Source: Candidatus Rifleibacterium amylolyticum (GTDB taxonomy: Bacteria > Muiribacteriota > Ozemobacteria > Ozemobacterales > Ozemobacteraceae). Taken from it: a stretch of 64,000 bases of DNA. The notes below the pieces were generated by a model. It searched no databases. It worked only from the letters and a program-made list of their open reading frames with translations, and was not told the DNA's origin. The stretch's first letter is position 1. Every line of letters starts with the position of its first letter. Positions 16,390 to 57,705 of this stretch are shown here, in pieces. The position numbers were made by a program, and so were the translations under genes. Location of the stretch: contig JAACJG010000003.1 of the NCBI GenBank assembly GCA_009917695.1, positions 62,001 to 126,000 on the forward strand, read 5' to 3'.

Positions 16390-19287
16390 TCAGGCCCGGG
16401 TCCCCAGCCGATGAATGGCGACCGGCGCGGTTTTCCCTTTGATTTTGATTTCTCCGAGATTTTCTGCTGTTGCCGAGTCGGGAAGCAGTGAGCGGGTTTT
16501 CTCGTCGGCGATTATCTGTGAGCCAGTGTCGTCAGCTGCCAGAGCGTTGAGACGGGCCGCCAGGTTGACGGCATCACCAATGACAGTGTAATCGAGGCGT
16601 AGATTGCGGGCACCGATAATGCCGGCTACGACCGTTCCGGTGGCGAGACCGTAATAACCTTTGCATTGCTGTGCGGCCAGCTGCTGTTTGAGGGCAAATA
16701 CCGTATCAATAGCCTGTTTTACCGCACTATTAGCGCCGGCGCAGGCTTCGTGGTCGAAAAACACCAGAATCTTGTTTTCCATTACTTTGTCAATGACGCC
16801 AGCAGTCGGGCGAATAGCTTCCTGGCTTGCCTTGAGATGAAATGCCTGCTGTTCGATGAACGCTTCGGCATCATTTGCATCGCCGGTTTTAACTGATGCA
16901 AAAAGTATCGTCATTGCGCGTTTTTCGCCTTTTATCGCCTTTTCAAAGGCGCTCTTGTCTTTAACCACTTTTATCACTGCTGAAGATACGAATTTACCGA
17001 GCAAAGAGCCTTCTGCCAGACCTTGTGCCATTGTGTTGAATGATCTGCCTATACTGCCGAATTCATCAGTTCTTTGATCGAGCGCCGTTCGTTCGGCAAA
17101 GTCGCCGCGGCTGATGCTGGCGAGAACTCGCTGCAGGTGTTTTAGCGGGCTCATGAAATACCAGTATAAAAACATGACAAGAGCTGCGAGAAGAGTTATG
17201 GCTGTTACTAACATTGTGTTAACCATATTTTCGAGACTGCTCTTTGTCGCAAAGAAATCTTTGAGTGAGGCTACTCCAGCAAGAATATAGAGTGATAAAG
17301 ACTTTCCCGGTCGTGTTTTTATCAGCAGTTTTTCTTCAGCTGTCATCTGCTCATGGGAAGTCAGTTGAATTCCCACTCTTCGCGTGCGCTCGATCAGATC
17401 CCAGACCGGAGGAGTGATCGGGATGGTACTGCGGAAGTGACCATGGAACGAGCCTTTGCGAACTGCTGCAAACTCGAAGTTGTCGGCCCGCTCGCCTCTG
17501 TTTTTGCGCAGAAAAGCAAGATAGTCCTCGGATTCATTGAATTCGCTCCACATGACCAGTATTATGGCGCGGACAACGCCGGCGATAGTAATCGGAACTC
17601 CGCTTGTCGAAACCATAAGAAAGCTTGAGTTTGCTTCAACAAGACTGCTCGGGTTCGCCATGAGCCGGTAAAAGAACTCTTCGCCGAGCACGCCCTGAAA
17701 GAACTTGATGAGAAAGTCGCTGATCATTTCTTCTTTTACTTCGTCAAGAGAGAGCTGGTTGCCTGTCTGGCCATTTTTATCGATTAATTCAGGGCGAAAT
17801 TTGTGCAAGACCGATTTTAAAAGCATTGCAAACATTTCACTGGCGTTTTTCGAATCACCCTCGCCGCCTTTGCGTAACCAAACAGCGTTTTGGCCATTAT
17901 CCTGCTGCATCGTCATCAGCAGAAAGCTGTTGCCAAGAGGTTCTGGATACTTTGCTCTGACACTGACGCTGATTTCTTCAAGAGCCTGAGTGCTGCGATC
18001 GCCTTCTATTGCCTGAATGACTTTTGCATTATCAGCAGGATGGCTGAGGCGGTAGAAAAAGTCTGCCATTGCCAGGTCGTAACGGTCTTCGAGACGTTGC
18101 AGATTTTTATCGAGATCACTTTCAGCCTGCTCCAGTATGGCTGACAGGTGACTGTCGAGAGAATGAGAAATGACCAGTCGGCCAAGCCCGGCTGGCAGAT
18201 AAAAAAGCGAAAAGAAGGCCGTCACCATTACCAGCGCAATAGAAATCCGCCAGCCCCTGCGAAAAATACGTCGTTGCAGCAATATCATTGAAAGCCCGGC
18301 GAATGTTATGAATGTAAAGATGAGAAACAGGGTTTCGCCATTAGTGAGAGGCATTTCTGGCAGGTGATTGGTAACCAGCATTATCAGCGAAGATTCGCCT
18401 ACCAGAACCGGAGCCGAATAGATATTGAACTTGCCAAATTGTAACTGAGTCGATTTCATCGGCAAATTAGCGGCTTCAGCGCTCATAAATCTTTGCAGGT
18501 CAGGCTTGTGACGCAGATACGGCGACCAGAATGGCTTTTCGTTTCCCGATACAGGAATGATCGCAAAGCCGGTTGCTGTTTTATCCAAAGTGCTGACCAT
18601 CGCATTGTAGGCGTAATCGGCTGGTATTTTTCCCGTTTCGAAGACTGCACAAAGCAGAATTTTGTCGTTGACTCCGTCAGGATAAAACCAGTAAAGCCAC
18701 GTGCTGCCTTTTACCGAAGTGAATGGCAGCATGATGCCCTCTTCCTTGTTTCTTATATATTCCTGGCGATCGATTATCGTAGCCGGGTTAACGGGAAAGT
18801 TGCACATGGTGGCAAGAGAGCTGGCAGCAGTTTGCAGTTCATGCTGACTTGGCGACTTGTTCATCAATGGAACAAAATTTTCGAGGAGATTGACGCCTGG
18901 CAGCGTTGAGCTTTTGCAGGTCGTTTGTAGCTTTTTGCTGCCAGGGTTTCGGCTGGCGATCAAGAGGTGATGTGGCGGCAGGCTGCGGGTCAATTGCTTA
19001 TAGAGTTCGCAGGCAGCAATTTTATCAGCATCGCCTGTTTTATCGGCCAATTCGCGAAGTTGCCGATGAAACTTGTTGAGCTGCAGCAGCGCCTGATATT
19101 CCCAGCTGGTGCTGACCTGCATCTTTTCCAGCGCGGTTTGCGCCAGTCGGTCAGCTGCTTCATTCTCGCTGATAATCTGGCGTTGGCGTGCGGTTGACCA
19201 GTCGAAAAGCACCAGAATGAATGGAATCGAAAGAAAGAGCCAGGCGGCGAGCAGCGACAGTGGCGAAAACCTATGAGTCTGGTTCAT
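16390..19287 (-). CDS. Membrane class III cyclase, C2-like half (metal site lost)
   Basis: A 965-residue membrane protein. TM1 lies near residues 12-27, then comes a periplasmic sensor, a TM pair near 320-385, a second large periplasmic sensor, a TM near 695-720, HAMP (ending in DEFGSIGRSFNTMAQGL) and a class III cyclase domain (about 790-965). The first metal Asp is replaced by Ser798 (FASVKT instead of FAD). The second is replaced by Asn838 (DKVMEN instead of DKFIGD). The adenine-selecting Lys834 and Thr901 are present, as are the transition-state pair Asn908 and Arg912 (VNLAARL). By the animal C1/C2 scheme this is a C2-type half. Its start overlaps the stop of the preceding cyclase gene (ATGA), implying coupled synthesis. 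Alone it should be inactive. Confidence 0.88.
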   Translation of the reverse strand: MNQTHRFSPLSLLAAWLFLSIPFILVLFDWSTARQRQIISENEAADRLAQTALEKMQVSTSWEYQALLQLNKFHRQLRELADKTGDADKIAACELYKQLTRSLPPHHLLIASRNPGSKKLQTTCKSSTLPGVNLLENFVPLMNKSPSQHELQTAASSLATMCNFPVNPATIIDRQEYIRNKEEGIMLPFTSVKGSTWLYWFYPDGVNDKILLCAVFETGKIPADYAYNAMVSTLDKTATGFAIIPVSGNEKPFWSPYLRHKPDLQRFMSAEAANLPMKSTQLQFGKFNIYSAPVLVGESSLIMLVTNHLPEMPLTNGETLFLIFTFITFAGLSMILLQRRIFRRGWRISIALVMVTAFFSLFYLPAGLGRLVISHSLDSHLSAILEQAESDLDKNLQRLEDRYDLAMADFFYRLSHPADNAKVIQAIEGDRSTQALEEISVSVRAKYPEPLGNSFLLMTMQQDNGQNAVWLRKGGEGDSKNASEMFAMLLKSVLHKFRPELIDKNGQTGNQLSLDEVKEEMISDFLIKFFQGVLGEEFFYRLMANPSSLVEANSSFLMVSTSGVPITIAGVVRAIILVMWSEFNESEDYLAFLRKNRGERADNFEFAAVRKGSFHGHFRSTIPITPPVWDLIERTRRVGIQLTSHEQMTAEEKLLIKTRPGKSLSLYILAGVASLKDFFATKSSLENMVNTMLVTAITLLAALVMFLYWYFMSPLKHLQRVLASISRGDFAERTALDQRTDEFGSIGRSFNTMAQGLAEGSLLGKFVSSAVIKVVKDKSAFEKAIKGEKRAMTILFASVKTGDANDAEAFIEQQAFHLKASQEAIRPTAGVIDKVMENKILVFFDHEACAGANSAVKQAIDTVFALKQQLAAQQCKGYYGLATGTVVAGIIGARNLRLDYTVIGDAVNLAARLNALAADDTGSQIIADEKTRSLLPDSATAENLGEIKIKGKTAPVAIHRLGTRA

Positions 19288-22139
19288 GTTTCCACCACCT
19301 CAAAATACTCGCTGTCAGCCAGAGATTCCATTGCGACATGTGGCAAAAGATCTCTGAATTCATGGCTGACTATTATATGAGTGTATTGACCGCGTTTTGA
19401 CTCAGCTTCGAGAACTTCCGATAAATGCCTGGCCTCGCCGGAAAGGCTGTATTCATGACGGTCGCCGGCGCCAAATGAACCGACCAGGAGTTTGCCACAG
19501 GCGATGCCTATGCCCATGCCATAGGTGAAGCTGCCCTCTTCGTTGCGCTGTTCGACGAGGTTTCGATGCTCTCTGATCATTGCCTGTGCGGCATTAACGG
19601 CTTTTTGGGCTGCCGTTGCCCTGTCTTCAGCAAAAAATACGGCAATAATGGCGTCGCCAATAAATTTGTCAATTTCTCCGCCGTTTTCGGTAATTCTTGT
19701 GCTCATCAGCTCCAGGTGGCGGTTCAGCAGTTCGACGATCTGCTCAGGCAGCCAGGTTTCCGAGAGCGTCGTGAAATTGCGAATATCAGACGCCAGTACA
19801 GCTCCCCAGCGCTTTTGCGGCTTTTTATCTGCTTGTACGGCTATGTCAAGCTGGTTTGCAAGAGTTCCGGAAACAAATTGCGCGAGCTCATTACGTTCAC
19901 ACAGTCCCTGCGCCATTTCGTCGAAAGCGTCTGCAACATCGCCAAGCTCGTCATCGCGGTTTAATCTTAGCCTTAGGTCGAATTTGCGGTCGAGAATGCT
20001 GGTGATACCTGAATCGATAATGTGCAGCGGCATAATGAAGTATGAAATCAGGGCGTTGGTAACCATTATCAGTATAACAAACAGCAACAGGGCTGCTGCT
20101 GTCAGCAGGTTACTTCGGTAGGCGGTTATGCTGAACAATGGCTTCAGGTTTGAGGTAGAGCCTAGCACTATTCCCTGCATATGCTCACATGGCTGGCAGA
20201 CAGTCAGGGTGTCTTCGCAGTCTTCGACAACCAATGAGCTGTTTGTCTGAGCAGCTGCAAGCCTTTGCAAAAACCAGCTTTCATGTGAAAAAGTTCTACG
20301 CCTTTCCGGCAAAGTGGCTTTAATCAAATTTTTATGTCTTTTTGCCATTGCCCAAAGCCGATCTGGCGTTGCACTATTTCCACGTAAAATCGCTCTGGCA
20401 GCGAATCGCTCCTGCGCCTCCGCCGCGGCTGTGAAAAACAGTATGCTGGCGACTATTTTACCCTGGTCGGCAATGAAGTCGTAAATTATGTAATGGCCTG
20501 CATCACCAAATGACATCAGCAGACTCTTTTGTCTGGCAAACGCAACATCACTGAAGACTGCATTGTTTGCTATCGAGCGGTAAGTCTCAAGTCCCAGCCG
20601 TTTGCTCTCATCGAGTTGTGCCATCGCCGCCCGGTGATCCTCTTCAGAGAAGTCCTTGAGCCCGGCATACATCATCGGAGCAAAGACATGCAGATGTGCG
20701 GTGTCGCCTTGCCTGTTCGCTTCTGGTGGCAGAATCAAGCGGTCATGTGAGCCAAACATGGTAATGCCGATGCTGCTGAGCGGCACATCGTTCGCTGCAA
20801 ACTCTTCAAAACAGCGCCGCAGAACATCGCTATCATTTTCTGTCTCTTCAGAAATAATGGCGCTTTTAAAAGCTGCGTCAGCCAGGTAACGACGTGCCAG
20901 ATTTTCAAAAACGGTTCGCAGTGATGTACTGTTACCGTCAATTTCCCGCAGTTCTTCCCGCATGCTGTTTACCATGCTGCGATAGCGAAGGTGATGGTCG
21001 TGTTCGATCGCAGATTTCCCTGCAACCACCAGAATCAGTATCGGAAGTCCTCCAACAAAAGCGACAAGCCCAAGCAGACTGTGTTTGACCGAAAAATCAA
21101 AGGGTCGGCCCCGCCGAAGTCGCATAAATACAACGCTGAACCATAACAACATGAGTGCGCCAGAATACAGGCTACTTATGGCCAGGCCGTCAGAATCTGG
21201 TTTTAAAGCGGTCAGCCAGAGCTCGTATGGCAGTTTTCTCGATATGCCGGATCTGAAAACAAAGGTGTCGTCATGAAGATTTCCAGCGCTCAATGATGCA
21301 ATTTTGCCATGTTGAGGATATTTGGCCAGCAGAGAAAAAAGATTCAGAACCGGCTTTTCGCTGCGGTCTTGTTCAAGAACTACCGGTTTAAGATTTTCAT
21401 GCAGGCTCTCGATCGGAACCAGAGCCGAATAAATTTGGTGGTGACCACTTTGCCGGGCAATTTCCTGCATGGCCAGAACAGCTGCATCTTCTATCTCAGG
21501 TCGTTTACCCGATATGATCATAAAGGCTCCCGCCTGCTGATCTGATGCGTTTAGAAAGTCCCAAAGCAGATATCTGCGTTTCCCGTTGAAAACCACATCG
21601 ATAAAGCGACCGGAACGGTTGCTGAGTAGCAGCTCGCCACTTATGCGCTCGCCGAACAGGCTGGACAAGCGGTTGTTTATCTTGTTTTTGTCGGTTGCAC
21701 CCAGGCTTTGCCATTTGCGCAGGCCATTTGCGATGCGAGCGAGAAAAGCGCTGCTGGTGCGTTCAAGGCCGCTGCCGGTGAGCGCTCGACCTTCATTCCC
21801 TGAAAACCTGAAAACGTAGAAAACAGCATCTTCACTAAGCCAGTTTTCTGGCAGAAGGTTCTGCAGCATTTGTCTGATCATTGTGCCGTCAGCCGCAAAA
21901 GGATCTGCCGACTTGTCGAGAAGGCTTTGAATCCGGTCGAGTCTTTTGCTGATTTGGACCTCAACCGGGCAGTTGGCTTTGAATTGTTGTACCAGCGCAG
22001 TTGCTTCTTCTTCGGCCTCAACGACAAAATGAGTATCTTCCAGTTGTGTCTGGTATTTGTCCCAGATGTTCGCTACTGGCAGAATGAGCATGGATAGCAC
22101 AAAAACTGCTGCAATCAGGATGTCTGATCTTCTGCTCAA
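19284..22139 (-). CDS. Membrane class III cyclase, C1-like half (transition-state residues lost)
   Basis: About 951 residues with the same plan as its downstream partner: TM1, periplasmic sensor, TM pair, second sensor, TM, HAMP (DELGDVADAFDEMAQGL) and a cyclase domain (about 775-951). Both metal Asp residues are present, Asp785 in ASDIRNFT and Asp829 in DKFIGDAI, with Lys825. The transition-state Asn and Arg are replaced by His905 and Val909 in SGEARHLSEVLE. It is therefore a C1-type half. I chose TTG 22139 because earlier in-frame starts would overlap the asparaginase gene by over 100 bp; it lies 22 nt after that gene's stop, with GAGAGG upstream. Residue numbers assume this start. Order: asparaginase, C1-like, C2-like. 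Confidence 0.86.
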   Translation of the reverse strand: MSRRSDILIAAVFVLSMLILPVANIWDKYQTQLEDTHFVVEAEEEATALVQQFKANCPVEVQISKRLDRIQSLLDKSADPFAADGTMIRQMLQNLLPENWLSEDAVFYVFRFSGNEGRALTGSGLERTSSAFLARIANGLRKWQSLGATDKNKINNRLSSLFGERISGELLLSNRSGRFIDVVFNGKRRYLLWDFLNASDQQAGAFMIISGKRPEIEDAAVLAMQEIARQSGHHQIYSALVPIESLHENLKPVVLEQDRSEKPVLNLFSLLAKYPQHGKIASLSAGNLHDDTFVFRSGISRKLPYELWLTALKPDSDGLAISSLYSGALMLLWFSVVFMRLRRGRPFDFSVKHSLLGLVAFVGGLPILILVVAGKSAIEHDHHLRYRSMVNSMREELREIDGNSTSLRTVFENLARRYLADAAFKSAIISEETENDSDVLRRCFEEFAANDVPLSSIGITMFGSHDRLILPPEANRQGDTAHLHVFAPMMYAGLKDFSEEDHRAAMAQLDESKRLGLETYRSIANNAVFSDVAFARQKSLLMSFGDAGHYIIYDFIADQGKIVASILFFTAAAEAQERFAARAILRGNSATPDRLWAMAKRHKNLIKATLPERRRTFSHESWFLQRLAAAQTNSSLVVEDCEDTLTVCQPCEHMQGIVLGSTSNLKPLFSITAYRSNLLTAAALLLFVILIMVTNALISYFIMPLHIIDSGITSILDRKFDLRLRLNRDDELGDVADAFDEMAQGLCERNELAQFVSGTLANQLDIAVQADKKPQKRWGAVLASDIRNFTTLSETWLPEQIVELLNRHLELMSTRITENGGEIDKFIGDAIIAVFFAEDRATAAQKAVNAAQAMIREHRNLVEQRNEEGSFTYGMGIGIACGKLLVGSFGAGDRHEYSLSGEARHLSEVLEAESKRGQYTHIIVSHEFRDLLPHVAMESLADSEYFEVVET

Positions 22140-22161: not shown

Positions 22162-23232
22162 TCAGTATTCGAAATACAGGCGTTGGATTTCGCTTCGGTC
22201 GAGATCCTTATGCAATGCCAGCATGAGAAGAATTCTGGCCTTTTGCGGAGTAAGACTGTCGGAAACAATGAAGCCGTATTTTGCATCGTCGACTTCAGCG
22301 TCGAGAGTCACCGGGCCGTCAGGAACTCTTGTCGCTCTGACAACGGTTATGCCAACCGCCGAAGCTTTTGCCAGCACATTAAGCACTTCTTCAGAAGGAT
22401 TGCCGTTGCCGACGCCGGCGTAAACGATGCCTCTGATATTGCTTTGACAGATGGTTTCGACCATCTGCGGATCGATGCCGGCATAGCCATAAATTATCGG
22501 AACTTCTGGCAGTTTGCCGGCAAACAATGGCAATTTGACAAGACTTTGATATGTGTGTTTCTTGTCTGGTCTGGTGTTGAAGCTGACCTTGCCATAGTTG
22601 ACCCGTCCCAGTGCGCCGTTTTCGCGGTCGTCAAAGGCTGCCGGGTTTATGGTATCGCACTTTCTGACGCCCCGCGCCGAGTAAATGCGGTCGTTCATCA
22701 CCACCAGAACACCCTTGTTACGTGCCTCACGCGCACCGGCTACGGCAACGGCATTATACAGATTCATGGCGCCATCAGCGCTGAGTGCCGAGCCTGGGCG
22801 CATCGAACCGGTCAAAACTACCGGTTTGTCGTAGGCAACGGTGAGGTTGAGAAACCAGGCAGTTTCTTCCAGAGTGTCGGTGCCATGTGTGATCACCACG
22901 CCATCAGCAAGATTAAGCCGGAACAACTGGTTTATTCTGGCTGCGAGTTTGAGCCAGTATTCAGGTTTCATGTCCTGGCTGCTGATATTGCAGATCTGTT
23001 CGCCCCTGATTCTGGCAATCTGTTCGAGTTGCGGCACTGCCGAAATCACTTTGTCTACCGGATTTACCGCCGCTTTGTAGGCAGATCCGGTAGCGCTGGC
23101 GCCACTGCCGGCAATAGTTCCACCAGTTGCCAGAATGCTTATTTCAGGCAGCTCAGCTGCTGTCGCCAGACAGGTGATGGTCAACAGATAGAGAACAAAA
23201 AAGCATCTTGTCAGCAAACTTTTATTCATCAT
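22162..23232 (-). CDS. ansB: Type II (periplasmic) L-asparaginase
   Basis: A 356-residue enzyme that hydrolyses asparagine to aspartate and ammonia. A signal peptide covers residues 1-26 (hydrophobic core then ATAA). The first catalytic motif ATGGTIAGSG carries nucleophile Thr39. The second, DGVVITHGTDTLEETA, carries Thr122-Asp123. Lys140 precedes the strand leading to GSMRP. A signal peptide together with the full TGGTIAG motif marks the type II group. It heads a three-gene operon with the two cyclases, which suggests that the cyclases might respond to amino acid or nitrogen conditions; that link is inference. The start ATG is preceded by GGGAG. A second Met follows directly and either could be used. 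Confidence 0.92.
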   Translation of the reverse strand: MMNKSLLTRCFFVLYLLTITCLATAAELPEISILATGGTIAGSGASATGSAYKAAVNPVDKVISAVPQLEQIARIRGEQICNISSQDMKPEYWLKLAARINQLFRLNLADGVVITHGTDTLEETAWFLNLTVAYDKPVVLTGSMRPGSALSADGAMNLYNAVAVAGAREARNKGVLVVMNDRIYSARGVRKCDTINPAAFDDRENGALGRVNYGKVSFNTRPDKKHTYQSLVKLPLFAGKLPEVPIIYGYAGIDPQMVETICQSNIRGIVYAGVGNGNPSEEVLNVLAKASAVGITVVRATRVPDGPVTLDAEVDDAKYGFIVSDSLTPQKARILLMLALHKDLDRSEIQRLYFEY

Positions 23233-23656: not shown

Positions 23657-23730
23657 GCACCCATAGCTCAGCTGGATAGAGTGTCTGCCTCCGGAGCAGA
23701 AGGTCACAGGTTCGAATCCTGTTGGGTGCG
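23657..23730 (+). tRNA. tRNA-Arg (CCG anticodon)
   Basis: A 74-nt cloverleaf: acceptor GCACCCA/TGGGTGC, anticodon stem TCTGC/GCAGA with loop CTCCGGA (CCG at 23691-23693), and T-arm with GGTTCGAATCC. CCA is not encoded. Its 3' end TGTTGGGTGCG is the attachment core of the element that follows. Confidence 0.95.
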
Positions 23731-23827
23731 ATGAATATAAAAATATTACAGTCTAATATGATGTAAGAATCGGCATAAATAGGCGGCTTTCGAAGTTTTC
23801 TCGACTAATGAGATAGAAAGCTGTCTA

Positions 23828-23895
23828 TTGAAATTTAGGGGTATTTGGGGGTATTATTGGGGGTATCTTAATATTATCTCTGGAGCGATACCCCC
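23828..23895 (+). promoter_or_regulatory. Integrase promoter embedded in GGGGGTAT repeats
   Basis: TTGAAA (23828-23833), an 18-nt spacer and TATTAT (23852-23857) form a likely promoter. The -10 lies within a cluster of the motif GGGG(G)TAT[TC] at 23838, 23847 and 23859. An inverted copy, GATACCCCC (23887-23895), fills the space between the ribosome site (GGAG, 23882-23885) and the integrase ATG. A protein binding this motif would block transcription and perhaps translation. Confidence 0.5.
23846..23868. repeat. 23-bp end repeat of the satellite, left copy
   Basis: Two GGGGGTAT units joined by TATT, identical over 23 bp to 31678-31700. It lies 116 bp inside attL. Confidence 0.85.
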
Positions 23896-25140
23896 ATGAA
23901 GCTGTCAGCCGTTCAAATAGCGAAAAGCAAGCCTCAAGCCAAAGATTATAAGCTCTTCGACGGTGAAGGGCTTTTTTTACTTATCCGGGCCAACGGTGGC
24001 AAGCTCTGGCGGATGAAGTATAGATTCAATGGTAAAGAGAAGCTATTATCTTTCGGGAGTCTTAACGATATAAGCCTGAAAGAAGCAAGAGAGCTGAAGC
24101 AGAGCGCAAGAAACCTTCTCAGCAAGGGCATTGACCCGGCAACCTATAAGCAGAGTCTCAAAACAGACGCGGCCGAAGCCGAGAAAAACACGTTAAAGCT
24201 GGTAGCTCTTGAATACTTCGACCACAAGCGCCAGAAGCTGAGCCCCCGAACAGTTGGGGGTATCTTCAGTCGATGGGAACGGCATATACTGCCATATTTA
24301 GGCGATACCCCCATAAAACAGATAACTTTGCAAGACTTGCTGGGGGTATTTGACAAAATGAAGGCTCTCGGAATAGCCGAGCCAGTCAGAAAGGCCCTGA
24401 GCGAAGTAAAAAGCGTTTTTGTTCACGCAGTTATAACGGGCAGGATAAAAGAGAATGAGAACCCCGGCGTTTATCTGAGTGGGGGTATCGTGCCTGAACG
24501 AAAAACAAAACACATGGCGGCCGTAACCAGCCCCGAAGATGTAAAAGCGCTTCTCGAAAGAATTTACTCTTACCGAAGCCATGGAGCGCCCATTGTCGGC
24601 AACGCTCTTCGATTGTTGCCGCTCGTTTTTGTGCGTGTCGGAGACTTGAGAGAGGCGAAGTGGTCTGAGATCGACTTCGAGCGTAGAGAGTGGCGCTTTT
24701 GCGCTGATAAAGGCGAAGTTGAAACAATAGTGCCTCTTTCGCGGCAAGCCGTTAATATTCTCGAAGAGGTGAAGATTTTTACCGGACAATATGAACACGT
24801 TTTTCCGGGCGCATGGGATAAGACCAAGGTAATGAGCAACAACGCAATAAGAAAGGCCCTGCAAACTATCGGTTATTCAGGCGATAGAATGACCGGGCAC
24901 GGCTTCCGGGCCATGGCCAGAACCATTCTTGAAGAGGAATTGAGATACCCTTACCAGTATATTGAACCTCAGCTATCGCATAAAGTCAGAGACCCGCTGG
25001 GGAGAGCATATAACAGAACGACTCACATTGAGGCGCGGCAAGAGATGATGCAGACATGGGCCGACTATCTCGACGAACTGAGAGCCAGCCCAAACCCTGA
25101 CCTTAAAGCACTTCGAGAGAAGTACAAGTATCGAGGTTGA
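23896..25140 (+). CDS. int: P4-type tyrosine recombinase (integrase)
   Basis: A 414-residue integrase with the DUF4102-type N-terminal arm-binding domain (DGEGLFLLI, YRFNGKEKLLSFG), a core-binding domain (about 100-195) and the catalytic domain. Visible catalytic residues are Arg247, His335 and Arg338 in HGFRAMARTIL, His362 in LSHKV and nucleophile Tyr372 in RAYNR. The first catalytic Arg stands in VFVRVGDLR, where many relatives have a TGxR type motif. It integrates and excises the element at the tRNA-Arg 3' end. The coding sequence itself contains four more copies of GGGGGTAT or its complement (24256, 24304, 24342, 24481). ATG 23896 has GGAG 10 nt upstream. Confidence 0.95.
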   Translation: MKLSAVQIAKSKPQAKDYKLFDGEGLFLLIRANGGKLWRMKYRFNGKEKLLSFGSLNDISLKEARELKQSARNLLSKGIDPATYKQSLKTDAAEAEKNTLKLVALEYFDHKRQKLSPRTVGGIFSRWERHILPYLGDTPIKQITLQDLLGVFDKMKALGIAEPVRKALSEVKSVFVHAVITGRIKENENPGVYLSGGIVPERKTKHMAAVTSPEDVKALLERIYSYRSHGAPIVGNALRLLPLVFVRVGDLREAKWSEIDFERREWRFCADKGEVETIVPLSRQAVNILEEVKIFTGQYEHVFPGAWDKTKVMSNNAIRKALQTIGYSGDRMTGHGFRAMARTILEEELRYPYQYIEPQLSHKVRDPLGRAYNRTTHIEARQEMMQTWADYLDELRASPNPDLKALREKYKYRG

Positions 25141-43640: not shown

Positions 43641-43777
43641 CCGATGATGTTTCGTGCTGGGCCGTTGTTACAAAAAATAAGCAAAAAATATTAAAACTTT
43701 TTAAGGGCTTCCGCGTATTGTGCTTTCTGGTGTAAAATGTTGCACAGATAAAAGTTGTACAACGGCAGGTGGGTTTT

Positions 43778-44977
43778 ATGAAAGAGACAAGAGAGAAGAG
43801 CTCCTACGCTCCCGGAGATCATGTATTTCTGCAGGGTGAGGTTGTTCCGGCCTTTTTTAAGGTTACTTCCGGGCGTTTCGCCAAGGTTTTTTCGAAGAAG
43901 TCGGTAAAAGAACTGGGTGTGCGGCGCATGCTCAATGAGGCCGACCTGATTGGCATCGTAACGCATCAGGAACTCTTTGGCGAGATCGAGGCTCTGATGG
44001 GCCAGCCCCAGGGTTTTTCGGTGTTCGCGCTTGATCCGTCGTCGATCGAACCGGTGCCGGCCGATAATCGCGATGCTCTGCAACATGTTATTGCCAGCGA
44101 CCCGCGGGTTGGCGTGCGCGCCTGCGTATCGTTTGCGCGCTATATGAAGCAGTTTTTCTCTTATTTTGCCGGCATTGCCAGAGAAGAAGTCGAGCTCGAG
44201 GCTTTCATCAGGGCGACAGCCCGCGATTACATGGCCGGTGTCAACGAACTGGCCGGAATTGTCTGTCCGGCGCTCAACGACCCTGATCTGACTGCCGCCA
44301 AAGACCACAAGGCTTATGAAATTGCCCGCGAAATTCTTCGCCAAGCTGATTTGACGCGCAATGCCAATGCTTCGGTAGCCTGCGGGGTTGTCAGCTATGT
44401 TGGCAAAGACGTAAAAATGCAGGCTTTCAAGGCCGGTTCTCTTCTTTGTAAAGAAGGAACGATCGGCGACAAGCTATTCATAATCACCGAAGGTACTGCT
44501 GAAGTTATTACCAGTGGCGGCAGTCCGAATATAAGAATAGACACGCCCGGCAGCATCGTCGGTGAAATCGCGGTGTTTCTCAATCTCGACGCCGAAGTTC
44601 CTGATATGCGCAGAACTGCCGATGTGGTCTGTGCCACCGATCTTACTGCAATCGTAGTGCATCTCAGTCAGGTCGAGGGATTCTTTCTCAAGCAGCCTGA
44701 CATAATGACTAGAATGCTTATGGCCATGGTCAACCGCTCAGAAAACACGCAAAAGCTCTGTGATAATTCTGAGCGACTGCTCAAAGATCTGCTCTACAAG
44801 AAACTCGGTATTCTGCTCGAAGGTCTCAACGCCATGGCAAAACGCCTTGCAGACCGCCACGACAAGATCTCGCTCACCCGCCCGGCTGCCTTTTTCGCGC
44901 AGCGCGCCCGCGCCGCCTACAACCGCTTCAAAGAATCACTCGACATTCTCGCCAGAAAAAGCGCCATCAAAACCTGA
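43778..44977 (+). CDS. Double cyclic-nucleotide-binding protein
   Basis: A 399-residue soluble protein with two CRP-type beta-roll domains. The first (about 5-115) is divergent (YAPGDHVFLQGEVVPAFFKVTSGR). The second (about 205-320) is close to consensus: FKAGSLLCKEGTIGDKLFIITEGTAEV, then the phosphate-binding region SIVGEIAVFL followed by RRTADVVC. No helix-turn-helix is visible, so it is not a CRP-type transcription factor. The helical middle and tail may bind a partner. It is a possible receiver for the cyclic nucleotide made by the cyclase pair at 16.4-22.1 kb, but no genetic link is seen. ATG 43778 follows AGGTGGG. Confidence 0.82.
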   Translation: MKETREKSSYAPGDHVFLQGEVVPAFFKVTSGRFAKVFSKKSVKELGVRRMLNEADLIGIVTHQELFGEIEALMGQPQGFSVFALDPSSIEPVPADNRDALQHVIASDPRVGVRACVSFARYMKQFFSYFAGIAREEVELEAFIRATARDYMAGVNELAGIVCPALNDPDLTAAKDHKAYEIAREILRQADLTRNANASVACGVVSYVGKDVKMQAFKAGSLLCKEGTIGDKLFIITEGTAEVITSGGSPNIRIDTPGSIVGEIAVFLNLDAEVPDMRRTADVVCATDLTAIVVHLSQVEGFFLKQPDIMTRMLMAMVNRSENTQKLCDNSERLLKDLLYKKLGILLEGLNAMAKRLADRHDKISLTRPAAFFAQRARAAYNRFKESLDILARKSAIKT

Positions 44978-51095: not shown

Positions 51096-52640
51096 ATGGC
51101 AAAGAGTAAAAAAGCGAACGACGATAAGAACGAACCACTCGAAAAACAACTCTGGAAAGCTGCCGACAAGCTGCGCAAAAATATCGATGCGGCCGAATAC
51201 AAGCATGTTGTGCTGGGGCTGATGTTCTTGAAATACATTTCTGACTCTTTTGAAGAAATGTTTGCCAGGCTGCAGGCCGGCGAAGGCAATTATGCCGGCG
51301 CCGACCCCGAAGATAAAGATGAATACAAGGCCGAAAATGTTTTTTTCGTGCCAACCGAAGCCCGCTGGTCTTTTCTGGTCAGCAAAGCAAAGCACCCTGA
51401 CATCGGCACCTACATTGACGCCGCTATGGATGCAATCGAAAAAGAAAACACTTCGCTCAAGGGCGTTCTGCCCAAAGTTTATTCGCGACAGAATCTTGAC
51501 CCGGTTAACCTTGGCGGCTTGATCGATCTGATCGGAAACATTGCTTTCGGTGATGCCAAAGCCCGCAGTGCCGACGTGCTGGGCCATGTGTTTGAATATT
51601 TTCTCGGCGAATTCGCCCTGGCAGAAGGTAAGCAGGGCGGCCAGTTTTACACGCCACGCTCAATTGTTGAACTTCTGGTAGTCATGCTAGAACCCTATAA
51701 AGGTCGCGTATTAGATCCCTGCTGCGGTTCCGGCGGTATGTTCGTGCAGTCAGAAAAATTTGTTTCAGAGCATCAGGGTCGCATCAACGACATTTCGATC
51801 TATGGTCAGGAAAGCAACCAGACTACCTGGCGCCTGGCCAAAATGAATCTCGCCATTCGTGGCATCGATAGCTCGCAGGTTAAGTGGAACACGGAAGGTT
51901 CGTTTCTTAACGATGCGCATAAAGATGTAAAGGCAGACTTTATCATAGCCAATCCGCCTTTTAACGATAGTGACTGGAGCGGCGAGCTGCTCAGCGGCGA
52001 TGGACGGTGGAAATACGGCACGCCACCGAATGGTAATGCCAACTATGCCTGGTTGCAACATTTCATTCATCACCTGTCTCCTACCGGAAAAGCTGGTGTG
52101 GTTCTGGCCAAAGGGGCTTTAACCACTAAAACCAGCGGAGAAGGCGATATCAGACGAAAATTGATCGAAGAAGGCAATCTGATCGACTGTATCGTCAACC
52201 TGCCGGCAAAGCTATTTTTGAATACGCAGATTCCGGCGGCACTGTGGTTTATTAACCGTGCCAGAAACAATGGTCACCCACGAAAGAACGAAATTCTGTT
52301 CATTGATGCCCGCAATCTTGGTCATCTAATCAACCGCCGCACCCGTGAACTTTCAGTAGAAGATATACAGCAGATCGCCCGCACTTATCACGCCTGGCGC
52401 ACCGGCGAAGGTCAATATGAAGACGTCAAGGGTTTCTGCGCTTCAGCTCCACTTTCGAAAGTCGCTGAACTCGACTTTGTTTTGACGCCCGGCCGCTACG
52501 TCGGCCTGCCTGAAGAAGAAGAAGATTTCAACTTCGCCGAACGCTTCATAGCTCTCAAAGCCGAATTGGAATCACAATTAAAAGAAGAAACAGATTTGAA
52601 CAGATTGATAGTTAAAAGTTTGGCAAAAATAAGCGCATGA
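51096..52640 (+). CDS. hsdM: Type I restriction-modification DNA methyltransferase subunit
   Basis: A 514-residue N6-adenine methyltransferase. The N-terminal HsdM_N helices (LEKQLWKAADKLRKNIDAAEYKHVVLGLMFLKYIS, in part WKAADKLR and LGLMFLKYIS) are followed by the SAM-binding motif LDPCCGSGGMF and the catalytic motif IIANPPF with Asn286. It forms M2S with the next gene product to methylate the recognition sequence, and M2R2S2 with HsdR to cut unmodified DNA. The stop overlaps the hsdS start by ATGA. Length is normal and all key motifs are intact. Confidence 0.96.
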   Translation: MAKSKKANDDKNEPLEKQLWKAADKLRKNIDAAEYKHVVLGLMFLKYISDSFEEMFARLQAGEGNYAGADPEDKDEYKAENVFFVPTEARWSFLVSKAKHPDIGTYIDAAMDAIEKENTSLKGVLPKVYSRQNLDPVNLGGLIDLIGNIAFGDAKARSADVLGHVFEYFLGEFALAEGKQGGQFYTPRSIVELLVVMLEPYKGRVLDPCCGSGGMFVQSEKFVSEHQGRINDISIYGQESNQTTWRLAKMNLAIRGIDSSQVKWNTEGSFLNDAHKDVKADFIIANPPFNDSDWSGELLSGDGRWKYGTPPNGNANYAWLQHFIHHLSPTGKAGVVLAKGALTTKTSGEGDIRRKLIEEGNLIDCIVNLPAKLFLNTQIPAALWFINRARNNGHPRKNEILFIDARNLGHLINRRTRELSVEDIQQIARTYHAWRTGEGQYEDVKGFCASAPLSKVAELDFVLTPGRYVGLPEEEEDFNFAERFIALKAELESQLKEETDLNRLIVKSLAKISA

Positions 52641-53812
52641 AATTTATAAAGACAACAACCTCAGAGTTAATGAAATCTGGGGTTTTAAGAATCGGCGACG
52701 GTTACCGTGCAAAAAATTGTGAGCTAATCGACAGCGGCCTGCCATTCGCCCGCGCAGGCAATATTAATAATGGATTTAACTTTGAAACTGCTGAATATTT
52801 GCCCCTTAGCTATTTAACCAAAGTTGGCGAAAAGGTCAGTCAAACCGGGGATACTGTTTTTACTTCAAAAGGCACAGTTGGCAGGTTTGCATATGTAAAC
52901 GAAAAAATCCAAAAATTTATATACTCACCTCAGCTTTGTTATTGGCGAAGTCTAGATCATAATATTCTCGCGCCACAATTTATCTATTACTGGATGCAAA
53001 GCAGAGAGTGCCTTGAGCAGATTGAAAGCTTAAAAGGGCAAACAGATATGGCCGATTATGTTAATTTAGCCGATCAGAGGCAAATGTTTATAACAATGCC
53101 CTCTATAAGCATGCAAAACGAGATTGTTGGTATTTTAGGAAGCCTAGACGACAAAATTGATCTGCTGCACCGCCAGAACAAAACCCTCGAAGCCATGGCA
53201 GAAGCTCTTTTCCGCCAGTGGTTTATAGAGGATCCTGATAAAGATTGGGACACAAAGCCTCTCAGCAGTATTGCCGTTTTTTTAAACGGCCTGGCCTGTC
53301 AAAAATTTCCACCAACGAATGATACAGACAAATTACCTGTATTGAAAATAAAAGAGCTCAGCAATGGGGTTTCTGAATCGACCGATTGGGCAAGCAACGA
53401 CGTTAAATCTGAATATATTGTTGAGACTGGCGATGTAATTTTTGCCTGGTCAGCGTCGCTCATGGTCAAAATATGGAATGGTGAACGCTGCATCCTGAAT
53501 CAACATCTATTTAAAGTTACTTCAAAATCTTACCCGAAATGGTTCTTTCTAATGTGGTGCAAACACCATCTTGCAGAATTTATAGCAATTTCAGCAAGCC
53601 ATGCAACAACGATGGGGCATATTAAGCGAAGCGATTTAGACAAAGCCATAGTTCTCGTTCCAGATAAACCGCGCTTGGATGTTATGTCTTTGCAAATGAA
53701 GCCTTTGATAGAAAAGCAAATTGCAAATTTCAGACAGATTCAAACTCTTGAAAAGCTTCGTGACACACTTTTACCAAAACTTTTAAGCGGTGAAGTAAGA
53801 GTTGAGATCTGA
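52637..53812 (+). CDS. hsdS: Type I restriction-modification specificity subunit
   Basis: A 391-residue protein with two target recognition domains. Each is followed by a long conserved helix (LHRQNKTLEAMAEALFRQWF after the first and LEKLRDTLLPKLLSGEV after the second), which is the HsdS spacer layout. TRD1 covers about residues 1-170 and TRD2 about 195-360; each recognises one half of a bipartite DNA site. Base composition is richer in A+T than hsdM and hsdR, as is common for exchanged specificity genes. It overlaps hsdM by 4 bp and is 2 bp before the Abi_C-like gene. Confidence 0.94.
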   Translation: MKFIKTTTSELMKSGVLRIGDGYRAKNCELIDSGLPFARAGNINNGFNFETAEYLPLSYLTKVGEKVSQTGDTVFTSKGTVGRFAYVNEKIQKFIYSPQLCYWRSLDHNILAPQFIYYWMQSRECLEQIESLKGQTDMADYVNLADQRQMFITMPSISMQNEIVGILGSLDDKIDLLHRQNKTLEAMAEALFRQWFIEDPDKDWDTKPLSSIAVFLNGLACQKFPPTNDTDKLPVLKIKELSNGVSESTDWASNDVKSEYIVETGDVIFAWSASLMVKIWNGERCILNQHLFKVTSKSYPKWFFLMWCKHHLAEFIAISASHATTMGHIKRSDLDKAIVLVPDKPRLDVMSLQMKPLIEKQIANFRQIQTLEKLRDTLLPKLLSGEVRVEI

Positions 53813-53814
53813 TA

Positions 53815-54492
53815 ATGGAAAGACTTCGTTCAACAATAGTTCAATATGGTCGCTGGTCTGAAATCGGCATTTATATTGACCGAATGGAGGCGCATTTTGA
53901 ATCAGACTTCAGCATAGCCGTGGAGAATGCCAAAGCTTTGCTGGAAACTATTGGCAAAGAAATCTGCAAAGACAAAAATGTTGAGTTAAGCAACAACCCA
54001 ACTGTTGGAGCAGTTATAAAAAAAGCGTTTATTGCCATCGGCTATAATAGCGAAGACCTTGTTAACAAGATTTCAACTGCGTTATCTACGATCGGTCAAG
54101 AATTAGGAACCCTGAGAAATCTTATCAGCCCTACTTCACACGGAAAATCTCTGGAAGAGCTTAAGGAGCGCAATAACAAAGTTGATCTTCTTACCAGAGA
54201 ATTTCTGATCGACAGCACGCTTTCAGTAGCCAGATTCATGATTAGAGCATTTGAAGAAAGAAAATACAGCGAATTGCGCGATGGCAGTCTTGAAATTGAC
54301 GGCAAAACATTGAATTACACCGAAGAAGAAGATTTCAATGAATTTTGGGATCAGACTTATGGCGAATTTGAAATGGGTGACTATTCATACACTGCCAGCG
54401 AAATATTATATGGCCTGGATTATGGAGCTTATGAGCTGGAACATAGAAATTTCTCAGAACTTGAAGATGAACTCGAAAGCGGGGTTATTTGA
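53815..54492 (+). CDS. Abi_C-like (abortive infection family) protein
   Basis: A 225-residue soluble acidic protein. The middle part (about 35-145) has the features of the abortive infection C-terminal domain: FSIAVENAKALLETIGKEI, then ALSTIGQELGTLRNLISPTSHGKS with the conserved RN...HG element. The last 60 residues are highly acidic with many Tyr. Such genes are often found within type I operons. It sits directly between hsdS and hsdR, 2 bp after the former, with the hsdR GTG starting right behind its stop, so it is co-translated with the restriction complex. Its molecular action is unknown. Confidence 0.7.
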   Translation: MERLRSTIVQYGRWSEIGIYIDRMEAHFESDFSIAVENAKALLETIGKEICKDKNVELSNNPTVGAVIKKAFIAIGYNSEDLVNKISTALSTIGQELGTLRNLISPTSHGKSLEELKERNNKVDLLTREFLIDSTLSVARFMIRAFEERKYSELRDGSLEIDGKTLNYTEEEDFNEFWDQTYGEFEMGDYSYTASEILYGLDYGAYELEHRNFSELEDELESGVI

Positions 54493-57400
54493 GTGAGCCG
54501 TTTAACAGAATCAGCAATAGAAGAATTTGCGATCAAGCTTTTTGAAAGGCTTGGCTACAGTTATGTTCATGCTCCAGATATAGCACCGGACAGCGATAAT
54601 CCTGAGAGAGCCGATTATTCTGAGGTATTGCTGATCGGCAGACTTGAACAGGCATTGAAGCGAATCAACCCCGACTTGTCAGCAACAGTTTTGCAGGCGG
54701 CGGTCAAAGAAATTCGCCGCATTCATTCGCCGGAGTTGCTTGCCAATAACGAAACTTTTCATCGTTATCTTACCGAAGGTATCAAGGTCAGCTACCAGCA
54801 CGAAGGCAGCGAACGTGGCGCCCAGGTTTGGCTGATTGATTATGCAAAGCCTGAAAATAATGAATTTGTTGCAGCAAACCAGTTCACCGTCATCGAGAAC
54901 CACCTGAATAAACGCCCTGATCTTGTTTTATTCGTGAACGGCATTCCGCTGGTAGTGATCGAACTCAAAAACGCCACCGATGAGAATGCTACCATCAAGA
55001 GTGCATTTCAACAGCTTGAAACTTATAAACAGACGATTCCATCATTGTTCACATACAATGCCATACTGGTTGTTTCAGATGGTCTCGAAGCCAAAGCCGG
55101 TTCTATTTCTGCCGGTTTTTCGCGTTTCATGACCTGGAAAAGTGCTGATGGAAAAAGTGAAGCTTCTCATCTGGTCAGTCAGCTTGAAACTCTTATCAAC
55201 GGGATGCTCAACAAGGCAACCCTGCTCGATCTGGTGCGCCATTTCATCGTCTTCGAAAAGGGCAAAAAGGAAGACCCGCAAAACGGCCAGATCATTATCA
55301 GCACTGTTAAAAAACTGGCTGCTTACCACCAGTATTATGCAGTTAATGCCGCGGTCGCCTCAACAATTCGAGCTGCCGATTTCAGCGAAAATTACAGTGC
55401 TAAAAATAGTCCATCTGCCTATGGCCTGCCGGATGTCGAATCGCAGCCAAAAGGCGACCGCAAGGCCGGCGTTGTCTGGCACACCCAGGGCTCCGGAAAG
55501 TCTCTTTCGATGGTGTTTTATACCGGCAAAATCGTTTTGCTGCTTGATAACCCGACAATTCTGGTTATAACCGACCGCAACGATCTAGATGACCAGCTTT
55601 TCGACACTTTTGCCGCATCCCGGCAACTTCTGCGTCAGGAACCTGTGCAGGCCGAAAACCGCGAGCACCTCAAGGAACTTTTGAAAGTGGCTTCCGGCGG
55701 TGTTGTTTTTTCAACCATTCAGAAGTTTCAGCCGACCGAAGGCAATACTTATGAACGCTTGTCTGAGCGCCGCAACATCATTGTTGTCGCCGATGAAGCC
55801 CACCGCACTCAATACGGCTTTGCCGCCAAGACCATCGATGATAAAGACGATAATGGTCAGATAATCGGCAAGAAAGTCGTTTACGGATTCGCCAAATACC
55901 TGCGTGACGCTTTGCCCCATGCCACATATCTTGGTTTTACCGGCACCCCTATTGAAAAGACCGACGTAAATACTCCGGCAGTTTTTGGTAACTATGTTGA
56001 TGTTTACGACATCGCCCAGGCCGTAGAAGACGGTGCAACCGTCAGAATATTTTACGAAAGCCGCCTTGCCAGGGTTGCTTTGAGCGAAGAAGGCAAAAAG
56101 CTCATTGCCGAACTCGATGAAGAACTGGAGCAGGACGAATTAACTGAAACCCAGAAAGCCAAAGCCAAATGGACACGCATGGAAGCGTTGATTGGCAGCA
56201 AACAGAGAATCGCCAATATTGCCCGCGACATAGTTCAGCATTTTGAGGCGCGACAGGAAGTATTTGAAGGCAAGGCCATGGTTGTCTGCATGTCACGCCG
56301 TATTGCTGCCGAACTGTATAAAGAAATAACCGAACAGCGAAAGAGCTGGCACTCTGATGACCTGAGCAAAGGCGCTATAAAATTAGTAATGACTGCAAGT
56401 TCAAGTGATGGGCCGCTGCTGGCGAAACATCACACAACAAAGGAACAACGCAAACTACTGGCTGAACGCATGAAAAATGATGACGATCCGCTGAAGCTGG
56501 TTATCGTTCGCGATATGTGGCTAACCGGCTTTGACGCGCCAGGTTTACACACTATTTACATCGACAAACCAATGCGCGGCCACAATCTTATGCAGGCAAT
56601 TGCAAGAGTGAACCGGGTTCACAAAGATAAACCCGGTGGCCTGGTAGTAGATTATCTCGGTATCGCTTCAGATCTTAAAGAGGCATTGTCTTTTTATTCT
56701 GATGCCGGCGGTAAGGGTGACCCGACACTGTTACAGGAACAGGCAGTCAGACTCATGCTTGAAAAAGTCGAGATCATATCGGCCATGTTTCATGGCTTTG
56801 CCTACGAAGAGTTTTTTGCCGCCGACACGGCCCGCAAGCTTTCCCTGATTCTGGCTGCGGAAGAACACATTCTGAAGCTAGAAGACGGAAAGAAGCGTTA
56901 TCTCAAAGAAGTTAACGATCTATCACAGGCATTCGCAATTGCTGTTCCCCATGAGCAGGCTCTTGATGCAAAAGACGAGGTTGGTTTTTTTCAGGCAGTA
57001 AAGGCCAGACTGGCAAAATTTGATGACACGGGCATTGGCGAGAATGAAAAACGCAACATTGAAACCACTATTCGCCAGGTAATCGATAAAGCTCTGGTTT
57101 CTGATCAGGTTGTCGATGTTTTCGACGCGGCTGGCATCAAGAAGCCTGACATTTCGATTCTATCTGATGAATTCCTGGCTGAACTGCGCAATTATGAGCA
57201 TAAGAACCTTGCCCTGGAAGTTCTTAAGAAGCTTCTCAATGATGAGTTGAAGATTCGTGCCCGCAAGAATCTGGTGCAAAGCCAGTCGCTTATGGAAATG
57301 CTGGAAAACGCCATAAGAAAATACCAGAACAAGATTCTGACGGCAGTTGAAGTTATTGAAGAACTGATAAAAATCAGCAAAGAAATTGTTTCATCTGATG

Positions 57401-57705
57401 ACGAAGCAAAGAAACTCGGTCTGAGCGATTTTGAATACGCTTTTTATACCGCTGTATCAAACAACCAGAGCGCCAGAGAATTGATGCAACATGAAAAATT
57501 GCGCGAACTGGCTGTAGTATTGACACAGAGAGTGCGCGAAAATGCCAGTATAGACTGGACAATCAAAGAAAGCGTTCGTTCAAGGCTCAAGGTAATAGTA
57601 AAAAGAACTCTGCGCTTTTTTGGTTACCCGCCAGACATGCAGCTTCTGGCAACTGAAACGGTTTTGAAGCAAGCCGAAATGCTTGCCAACGAGCTGTCAT
57701 CCTGA
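54493..57705 (+). CDS. hsdR: Type I restriction enzyme R subunit (translocase and nuclease)
   Basis: A 1070-residue motor and nuclease subunit. The N-terminal PD-(D/E)XK nuclease site is RPDLVLF...VVIELKN with Glu157 and Lys159. The SF2 helicase core has Walker A in QGSGKS (Lys336), the DEAH box in VADEAHRTQYG (Asp434), motif III-like LGFTGTP, and motif VI-like MQAIARVNRVH. The C-terminal helical domain binds the MS core. It translocates and cuts unmethylated DNA with ATP. The start is GTG directly after the Abi_C-like stop. All key residues are present, so the system is probably active. Confidence 0.96.
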   Translation: MSRLTESAIEEFAIKLFERLGYSYVHAPDIAPDSDNPERADYSEVLLIGRLEQALKRINPDLSATVLQAAVKEIRRIHSPELLANNETFHRYLTEGIKVSYQHEGSERGAQVWLIDYAKPENNEFVAANQFTVIENHLNKRPDLVLFVNGIPLVVIELKNATDENATIKSAFQQLETYKQTIPSLFTYNAILVVSDGLEAKAGSISAGFSRFMTWKSADGKSEASHLVSQLETLINGMLNKATLLDLVRHFIVFEKGKKEDPQNGQIIISTVKKLAAYHQYYAVNAAVASTIRAADFSENYSAKNSPSAYGLPDVESQPKGDRKAGVVWHTQGSGKSLSMVFYTGKIVLLLDNPTILVITDRNDLDDQLFDTFAASRQLLRQEPVQAENREHLKELLKVASGGVVFSTIQKFQPTEGNTYERLSERRNIIVVADEAHRTQYGFAAKTIDDKDDNGQIIGKKVVYGFAKYLRDALPHATYLGFTGTPIEKTDVNTPAVFGNYVDVYDIAQAVEDGATVRIFYESRLARVALSEEGKKLIAELDEELEQDELTETQKAKAKWTRMEALIGSKQRIANIARDIVQHFEARQEVFEGKAMVVCMSRRIAAELYKEITEQRKSWHSDDLSKGAIKLVMTASSSDGPLLAKHHTTKEQRKLLAERMKNDDDPLKLVIVRDMWLTGFDAPGLHTIYIDKPMRGHNLMQAIARVNRVHKDKPGGLVVDYLGIASDLKEALSFYSDAGGKGDPTLLQEQAVRLMLEKVEIISAMFHGFAYEEFFAADTARKLSLILAAEEHILKLEDGKKRYLKEVNDLSQAFAIAVPHEQALDAKDEVGFFQAVKARLAKFDDTGIGENEKRNIETTIRQVIDKALVSDQVVDVFDAAGIKKPDISILSDEFLAELRNYEHKNLALEVLKKLLNDELKIRARKNLVQSQSLMEMLENAIRKYQNKILTAVEVIEELIKISKEIVSSDDEAKKLGLSDFEYAFYTAVSNNQSARELMQHEKLRELAVVLTQRVRENASIDWTIKESVRSRLKVIVKRTLRFFGYPPDMQLLATETVLKQAEMLANELSS

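Follow-up and report, generated by a model that had tools for sequence, protein, structure and literature searches.

Paired receptor genes of Candidatus Rifleibacterium amylolyticum carry complementary halves of a class III active site and are predicted to form a heterodimeric adenylate cyclase

Class III cyclases that divide a single active site between two unlike partners are known from eukaryotes, namely tmAC, sAC and sGC. In the animal enzymes AC1-AC9, a family recognised by two six-TM bundles and class IIIa domains, the first cyclase domain (C1) supplies the metal ligands and the second (C2) the base and transition-state residues, giving one site per (pseudo)heterodimer in the order M1-C1-M2-C2. 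The cytosolic, haem-sensing sGC, which uses GTP, builds one site from two chains, with the metal ligands on alpha and Asn/Arg on beta, while AC10 (sAC) holds class IIIb-like C1 and C2 domains in one chain with a large C-terminal NTPase region and without a membrane receptor. CyaB, CyaC and Rv1625c, in turn, are each encoded by one gene, carry all catalytic residues in one chain and form two sites per homodimer. A 2022 review described the fused M1-C1-M2-C2 form as unknown in bacteria, and our survey of the open-access literature turned up no report of a heterodimeric class III cyclase from bacteria.

Here, we examined two overlapping genes, A and B, in a window of 64,000 nucleotides (the whole stretch of DNA analysed; positions 62001-126000 of contig 3 in the 5.39-Mb assembly G000). 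Their features are as follows.

19284..22139, minus strand: gene A (metal half), an ORF of 951 aa with a TTG start, coding for a receptor cyclase with a class III cyclase domain; the TTG codon is preceded by GAGAGGAAAG
16390..19287, minus strand: gene B (base/transition-state half), an ORF of 965 aa with an ATG start and the same architecture as gene A
19284..19287, minus strand: ATGA, shared by the stop codon of A and the start codon of B, from the sequence
19287..19823, minus strand: cyclase domain of A, residues ~773-951 (Pfam, structure models, Foldseek)
16393..16941, minus strand: cyclase domain of B, residues ~783-965 (Pfam, structure models, Foldseek)
17014..17172, minus strand: HAMP domain of B, residues 706-758 (Pfam PF00672, E = 2.4e-11)
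Protein A: four predicted TM segments at residues ~7-25, 319-337, 355-373 and 684-702 (hydrophobic segments)
Protein B: four predicted TM segments at residues ~10-28, 319-337, 348-366 and 689-707 (hydrophobic segments)

The ATGA coupling proposed in a preliminary description of this DNA is thus borne out as an overlap of four bases. Both proteins score above the curated PF00211 cut-off of 21.9 bits (A, 42.6 bits; B, 31.1 bits), and the HAMP domain of A gives a weak Pfam match. Each subunit consists of four predicted TM helices around two regions that are probably extracytoplasmic, followed by HAMP and the cyclase domain. A Pfam search of the sensor regions of A and B returned no match, and the structure models are too poor there for a ligand-binding fold to be named. 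An L-asparaginase-like ORF (22162-23232, minus strand) ends 22 bp upstream of gene A on the same strand; this neighbour is absent at the orthologous locus in the related genome G005, where a different gene occupies its place, and we therefore claim no functional link to the pair. Elsewhere in the window, on the plus strand, a tRNA gene (Rfam) is directly followed by an ORF resembling tyrosine integrases and by small ORFs of mobile type (23657-25140 and on to ~29482), probably an island inserted at the tRNA, and ORFs at 51096-57705 resemble the methylase, specificity and helicase subunits of a type I restriction-modification system.

The catalytic positions are distributed over the two proteins as follows.

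19785..19787, minus strand: Asp785 of A, first metal ligand, kept (D in 73/73 A domains)
19653..19655, minus strand: Asp829 of A, second metal ligand, kept (D in 73/73 A domains)
19425..19427, minus strand: His905 of A at the transition-state Asn position (catalytic-position comparison)
19413..19415, minus strand: Val909 of A at the transition-state Arg position (catalytic-position comparison)
16894..16896, minus strand: Ser798 of B at the first metal Asp position, adjoined by a 4-residue deletion
16774..16776, minus strand: Asn838 of B at the second metal Asp position (catalytic-position comparison)
16786..16788, minus strand: Lys834 of B, base-recognition Lys, kept (K in 74/74 B domains)
16585..16587, minus strand: Thr901 of B, base-recognition Thr, kept (T in 74/74 B domains)
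16564..16566, minus strand: Asn908 of B, transition-state Asn, kept (N in 74/74 B domains)
16552..16554, minus strand: Arg912 of B, transition-state Arg, kept (R in 74/74 B domains)

The residue numbers given earlier for A and B proved exact throughout. Protein A also retains Lys825 and has Ser898 at the Thr position. The six-residue catalytic set is therefore incomplete in A alone and in B alone and complete in A and B together, and its division is of the C1/C2 type, with both metal Asp residues in one partner and Lys, Thr/Asp, Asn and Arg in the other. Column conservation over 69 receptor-type pairs extends this division beyond the six positions: D785, R787, T790, E794, N806, G828, D829 and A830 are invariant or nearly so in A only, while D833-K834, T901, V907-N908, R912 and the C-terminal K950-G951-K952 are 91-100% conserved in B only. 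As the classes A and B were defined by their catalytic residues, with K and T outside the definition, two observations are informative: the pairs are without exception A+B, with no case of complete+complete or of A+A, and K and T do not vary in B but are relaxed in A. A single metal Asp survives in some B domains (the first in 3/74, the second in 41/74), so that sequence alone does not prove homodimers of those B domains inactive.

Comparison with animal cyclases points to the same assignment of roles. The A profile found its best match in the first domain of AC5, AC8 and sAC, and the second domain of these enzymes was the best match for the B profile; AC9 is an exception, as the best stretch for the B profile lies in its first domain. 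Against sGC, the A profile scored higher on alpha than on beta (~55 vs 30 bits) and the B profile higher on beta than on alpha (67 vs 39 bits), with IIC2 also preferred by B over VC1 (51 vs 42 bits). Single-chain models, built on six-row alignments and good in the cyclase domains although poor in the sensor regions, were placed by Foldseek among class III cyclases (CyaB, CyaC, Cya2; target TM-scores of ~0.7-0.8), with animal C1 (1azs_A, 1cjk_A) in the list for A and sGC beta in that for B.

A and B share with AC1-AC9 the order of metal and base halves and, in their fused members described below, the M1-C1-M2-C2 layout, but each half has four predicted TM segments, two large, probably extracytoplasmic regions and HAMP instead of six TM segments; base recognition involves a class IIIb-type Thr (74/74 B domains) where the animal enzymes have Asp; and the halves mostly occupy two genes and originate within a bacterial receptor family. 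Neither the six-TM bundles nor the class IIIa domains of animal tmAC are found, and the receptor region is homologous to that of two bacterial proteins, L043 and L046. On these sequence features, A and B would work like C1 and C2 but fall outside the animal tmAC family. The split pairs would resemble sGC in forming one site from two chains, whereas substrate, haem sensor and cytosolic location set sGC apart; the fused pairs resemble AC10 in joining C1 and C2 in one chain, yet A and B possess TM segments, HAMP and a C-terminal cyclase domain and do not belong to the sAC family. With the homodimeric cyclases CyaB, CyaC, Rv1625c, L043 and L046, which include the closest solved structures, A and B share the fold and the predicted dimer chemistry, and with L043 and L046 also the receptor region, but the homodimeric enzymes have no division of residues between chains.

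ATP-using class IIIb enzymes, CyaC among them, carry the Lys-Thr pair, and its presence in 74/74 B domains fits ATP as the substrate. A genuine heterodimer might instead produce cGMP or another cyclic nucleotide, given that base-recognition residues predict the product imperfectly and that the closest structural matches of A include a guanylyl cyclase, Cya2; set against the invariant Lys-Thr pair, we consider such a product unlikely and favor cAMP.

We next asked how widely this arrangement recurs. The G000 genome contains 61 class III cyclase domains (PF00211 matches), many of them sitting pairwise ~3 kb apart, and 36 of them belong to 18 A+B pairs, i.e., 13 adjacent gene pairs and five single-chain A-B fusions of ~2,000 residues. 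The same residue split is seen in each of the 18 pairs, adjacent or fused, whereas nearly all stand-alone domains are complete, which rules out chance. Paired regions were drawn, besides G000, from G001, G002, G005, G009, G010, G012 and G016; seven of these genomes (including G000, excluding G001) hold 70 intact A+B pairs, of which 49 are split and 21 fused. One fused soluble sAC-like tandem from G016 was set aside, leaving 69 receptor-type pairs with 20 fusions. Genes of the split pairs nearly always overlap, four bases being the commonest spacing, and A precedes B in 54 of the 70 pairs, including all fusions, and follows it in 16; split B-A pairs are also present in one other family of the phylum (f3; G012). 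The split anticipated for relatives is retained in the orthologs of the window pair in G005 (L151; A 58% identical) and, for both halves, in G001 (L166, L167), as well as across the 70 pairs. A single exception is the fused protein L185:7530-13544, the second on contig 14 of G002; it is the only fused protein with Asn and Arg still present in the A half and represents either a reversal or an intermediate.

This recurrence over all pairs rules out a coincidence at a single locus. Pseudogene decay is likewise ruled out, since the kept residues are invariant over ~70 pairs and the reading frames are intact apart from one B gene in G005 that is interrupted by an in-frame stop. Alternatively, both halves could be dead cyclases retained as receptor scaffolds or decoys that sense signals and control other proteins without making cyclic nucleotide, and a few degenerate stand-alone cyclases do occur in these genomes (L049/L241, L220/L265). 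However, despite low overall identity, what A and B have retained are catalytic residues. These do not vary among 73 A and 74 B domains and together complete the set once in every pair, a complementarity for which a scaffold has no need, and we regard the loss of activity in both halves as very unlikely.

If the halves depend on each other, an orphan half with the same receptor architecture would speak against the pairing that the preliminary description proposed. Among the PF00211 domains outside pairs in G000, G002 and G010, none has the B pattern, and no orphan with the A/B receptor architecture was present. Nearly all of these unpaired domains are complete, the incomplete ones being L049/L241, L220/L265, L239, L263 and L264; in G000, the stand-alone cyclases are complete except for two degenerate ones, L015/L265 and L049. 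The two A-like unpaired domains, L263 and L264, are parts of proteins of other kinds and have neither the A/B receptor region nor a neighbouring B. By contrast with the halves, L043 and L046 are complete stand-alone receptors of G000 that match A and B in length, four TM segments and HAMP. L043, which lies at G000:C3:126450-126971, ~450 bp past the end of the window, may serve as a model for the homodimeric ancestor of A and B.

The origin of the pair was traced with a tree from which the six catalytic columns had been removed. In this tree, A formed one clade (97/89), B formed one clade (97/89), and A and B together lay on one side of a branch separating them from the complete cyclases (98/88). 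An earlier, larger tree that included long-branch rows gave 97/94 for A, with the sAC-like half of G016 apart, and only 73/0 for B. L043 and L046 branch next to, and just outside, the A+B clade. The A and B profiles are clearly homologous, and so are the receptor regions (A vs B, profile E = 3e-66; to L043/L046, ~1e-20). Moreover, A-A distances predict B-B distances (r = 0.87, 69 pairs), a correlation reached in 0 of 2,000 permutations (largest 0.10), and the same holds within the 18 paralogs of G000 (r = 0.82; 0 of 5,000 permutations). Because A and B each form one clade even with the catalytic columns removed, a single split is preferred and repeated independent degeneration is ruled out. 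Together, the clades, the homologous receptor regions and the mirrored distances indicate that one receptor gene was duplicated, that its site was divided once and that the pair then multiplied as a unit; on the strength of these sequences, a single ancient duplication appears to underlie all pairs.

These results also bear on whether the halves are partners of each other. With ~18 As, 18 Bs and 24 stand-alone domains in one cell, including the complete receptors L043 and L046 of the same architecture, A and B might instead dimerize with complete cyclases or with halves from other loci in a combinatorial network. The gene overlap, the 20 receptor-type fusions and the co-diversification of A and B within one genome (r = 0.82) argue for dedicated partners, making such a network very unlikely, while some cross-pairing of As and Bs from different loci, especially close paralogs, may occur alongside dedicated pairing.

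The fusions allow a direct comparison with the animal layout. L038:460-6510 encodes a single chain of 2,016 aa. It begins with four hydrophobic segments, which are followed by HAMP and an A-type domain; after these come further hydrophobic segments, a second HAMP and a B-type domain, so that the predicted elements follow the M1-C1-M2-C2 plan. Used as a query against 40 genomes of the phylum, L038:460-6510 had matches at E <= 1e-60 in 22 of the 24 genomes from the window's family, and in at least 19 of these the matching open frame is ~1,900 aa or longer; the 16 genomes from other families gave no match. In a small sample of other phyla (labelled Spirochaetes, Leptospiraceae, Elusimicrobia, Verrucomicrobium, Cloacimonadota and others), only local cyclase matches were seen, and neither a full-length nor a fused relative. 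Contig 314 of G029 and contig 22 of G030 carry clusters in which numerous matches to fused cyclase receptors lie side by side (15-18 matches per genome). Separately, a soluble sAC-like C1-C2 tandem is found in a bacterium of the same phylum (G016:C52 around 89312-90484; L266 / L170), its first domain having both Asp residues and its second Thr, Asn and Arg; long branches in the larger tree mark it as a separate lineage.

Taking the pairing, the mirrored distances and the 20 receptor-type fusions together, we consider it highly probable that a single membrane-receptor adenylate cyclase is assembled from A and B as its subunits, the two forming a heterodimer that has one active site, like animal C1/C2. 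These sequence tests support the reading put forward in the preliminary description, that of one site, two sensors and ATP-type base residues. Signals at the sensor regions of A and B would act through the HAMP segments and bring the two cyclase domains together, whereupon the A domain would hold the metals and triphosphate, the B domain would hold the adenine and stabilise the transition state, and ATP would be converted to cAMP at the joint site. As a homodimer of A or of B would have no complete site, the pair can operate as a gate that requires two inputs to coincide. CRP-type proteins would probably read the cAMP; G000 encodes 19 cNMP-binding domains. A 402-aa ORF in the window (43769-44977, plus strand) has two cNMP-binding domains and is a candidate cAMP receptor.

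Symmetry demands a second, non-catalytic pocket in such a heterodimer, and the preliminary description suggested that it might bind a regulator, as the forskolin site does in C1/C2. Column conservation did not favor this suggestion, as the positions lost in A and in B have no conserved replacement residues, and we consider a regulator-binding role for the degenerate interface improbable.

With regard to its broader implications, it is likely that this phylum independently evolved the animal plan, comprising duplication, division of the site, expansion to ~18 pairs per genome, partial fusion into M1-C1-M2-C2 chains and the use of the products as two-input cAMP coincidence detectors. Within one genome, receptors of the complete, homodimer type occur here beside both split and fused pairs of the same family. 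No such evolutionary series is available for the animal enzymes; this one makes it testable why a cyclase surrenders one site of its two and is later fused. For these organisms, members of a little-studied phylum, the pairs would amount to a cAMP input layer of unusual size.
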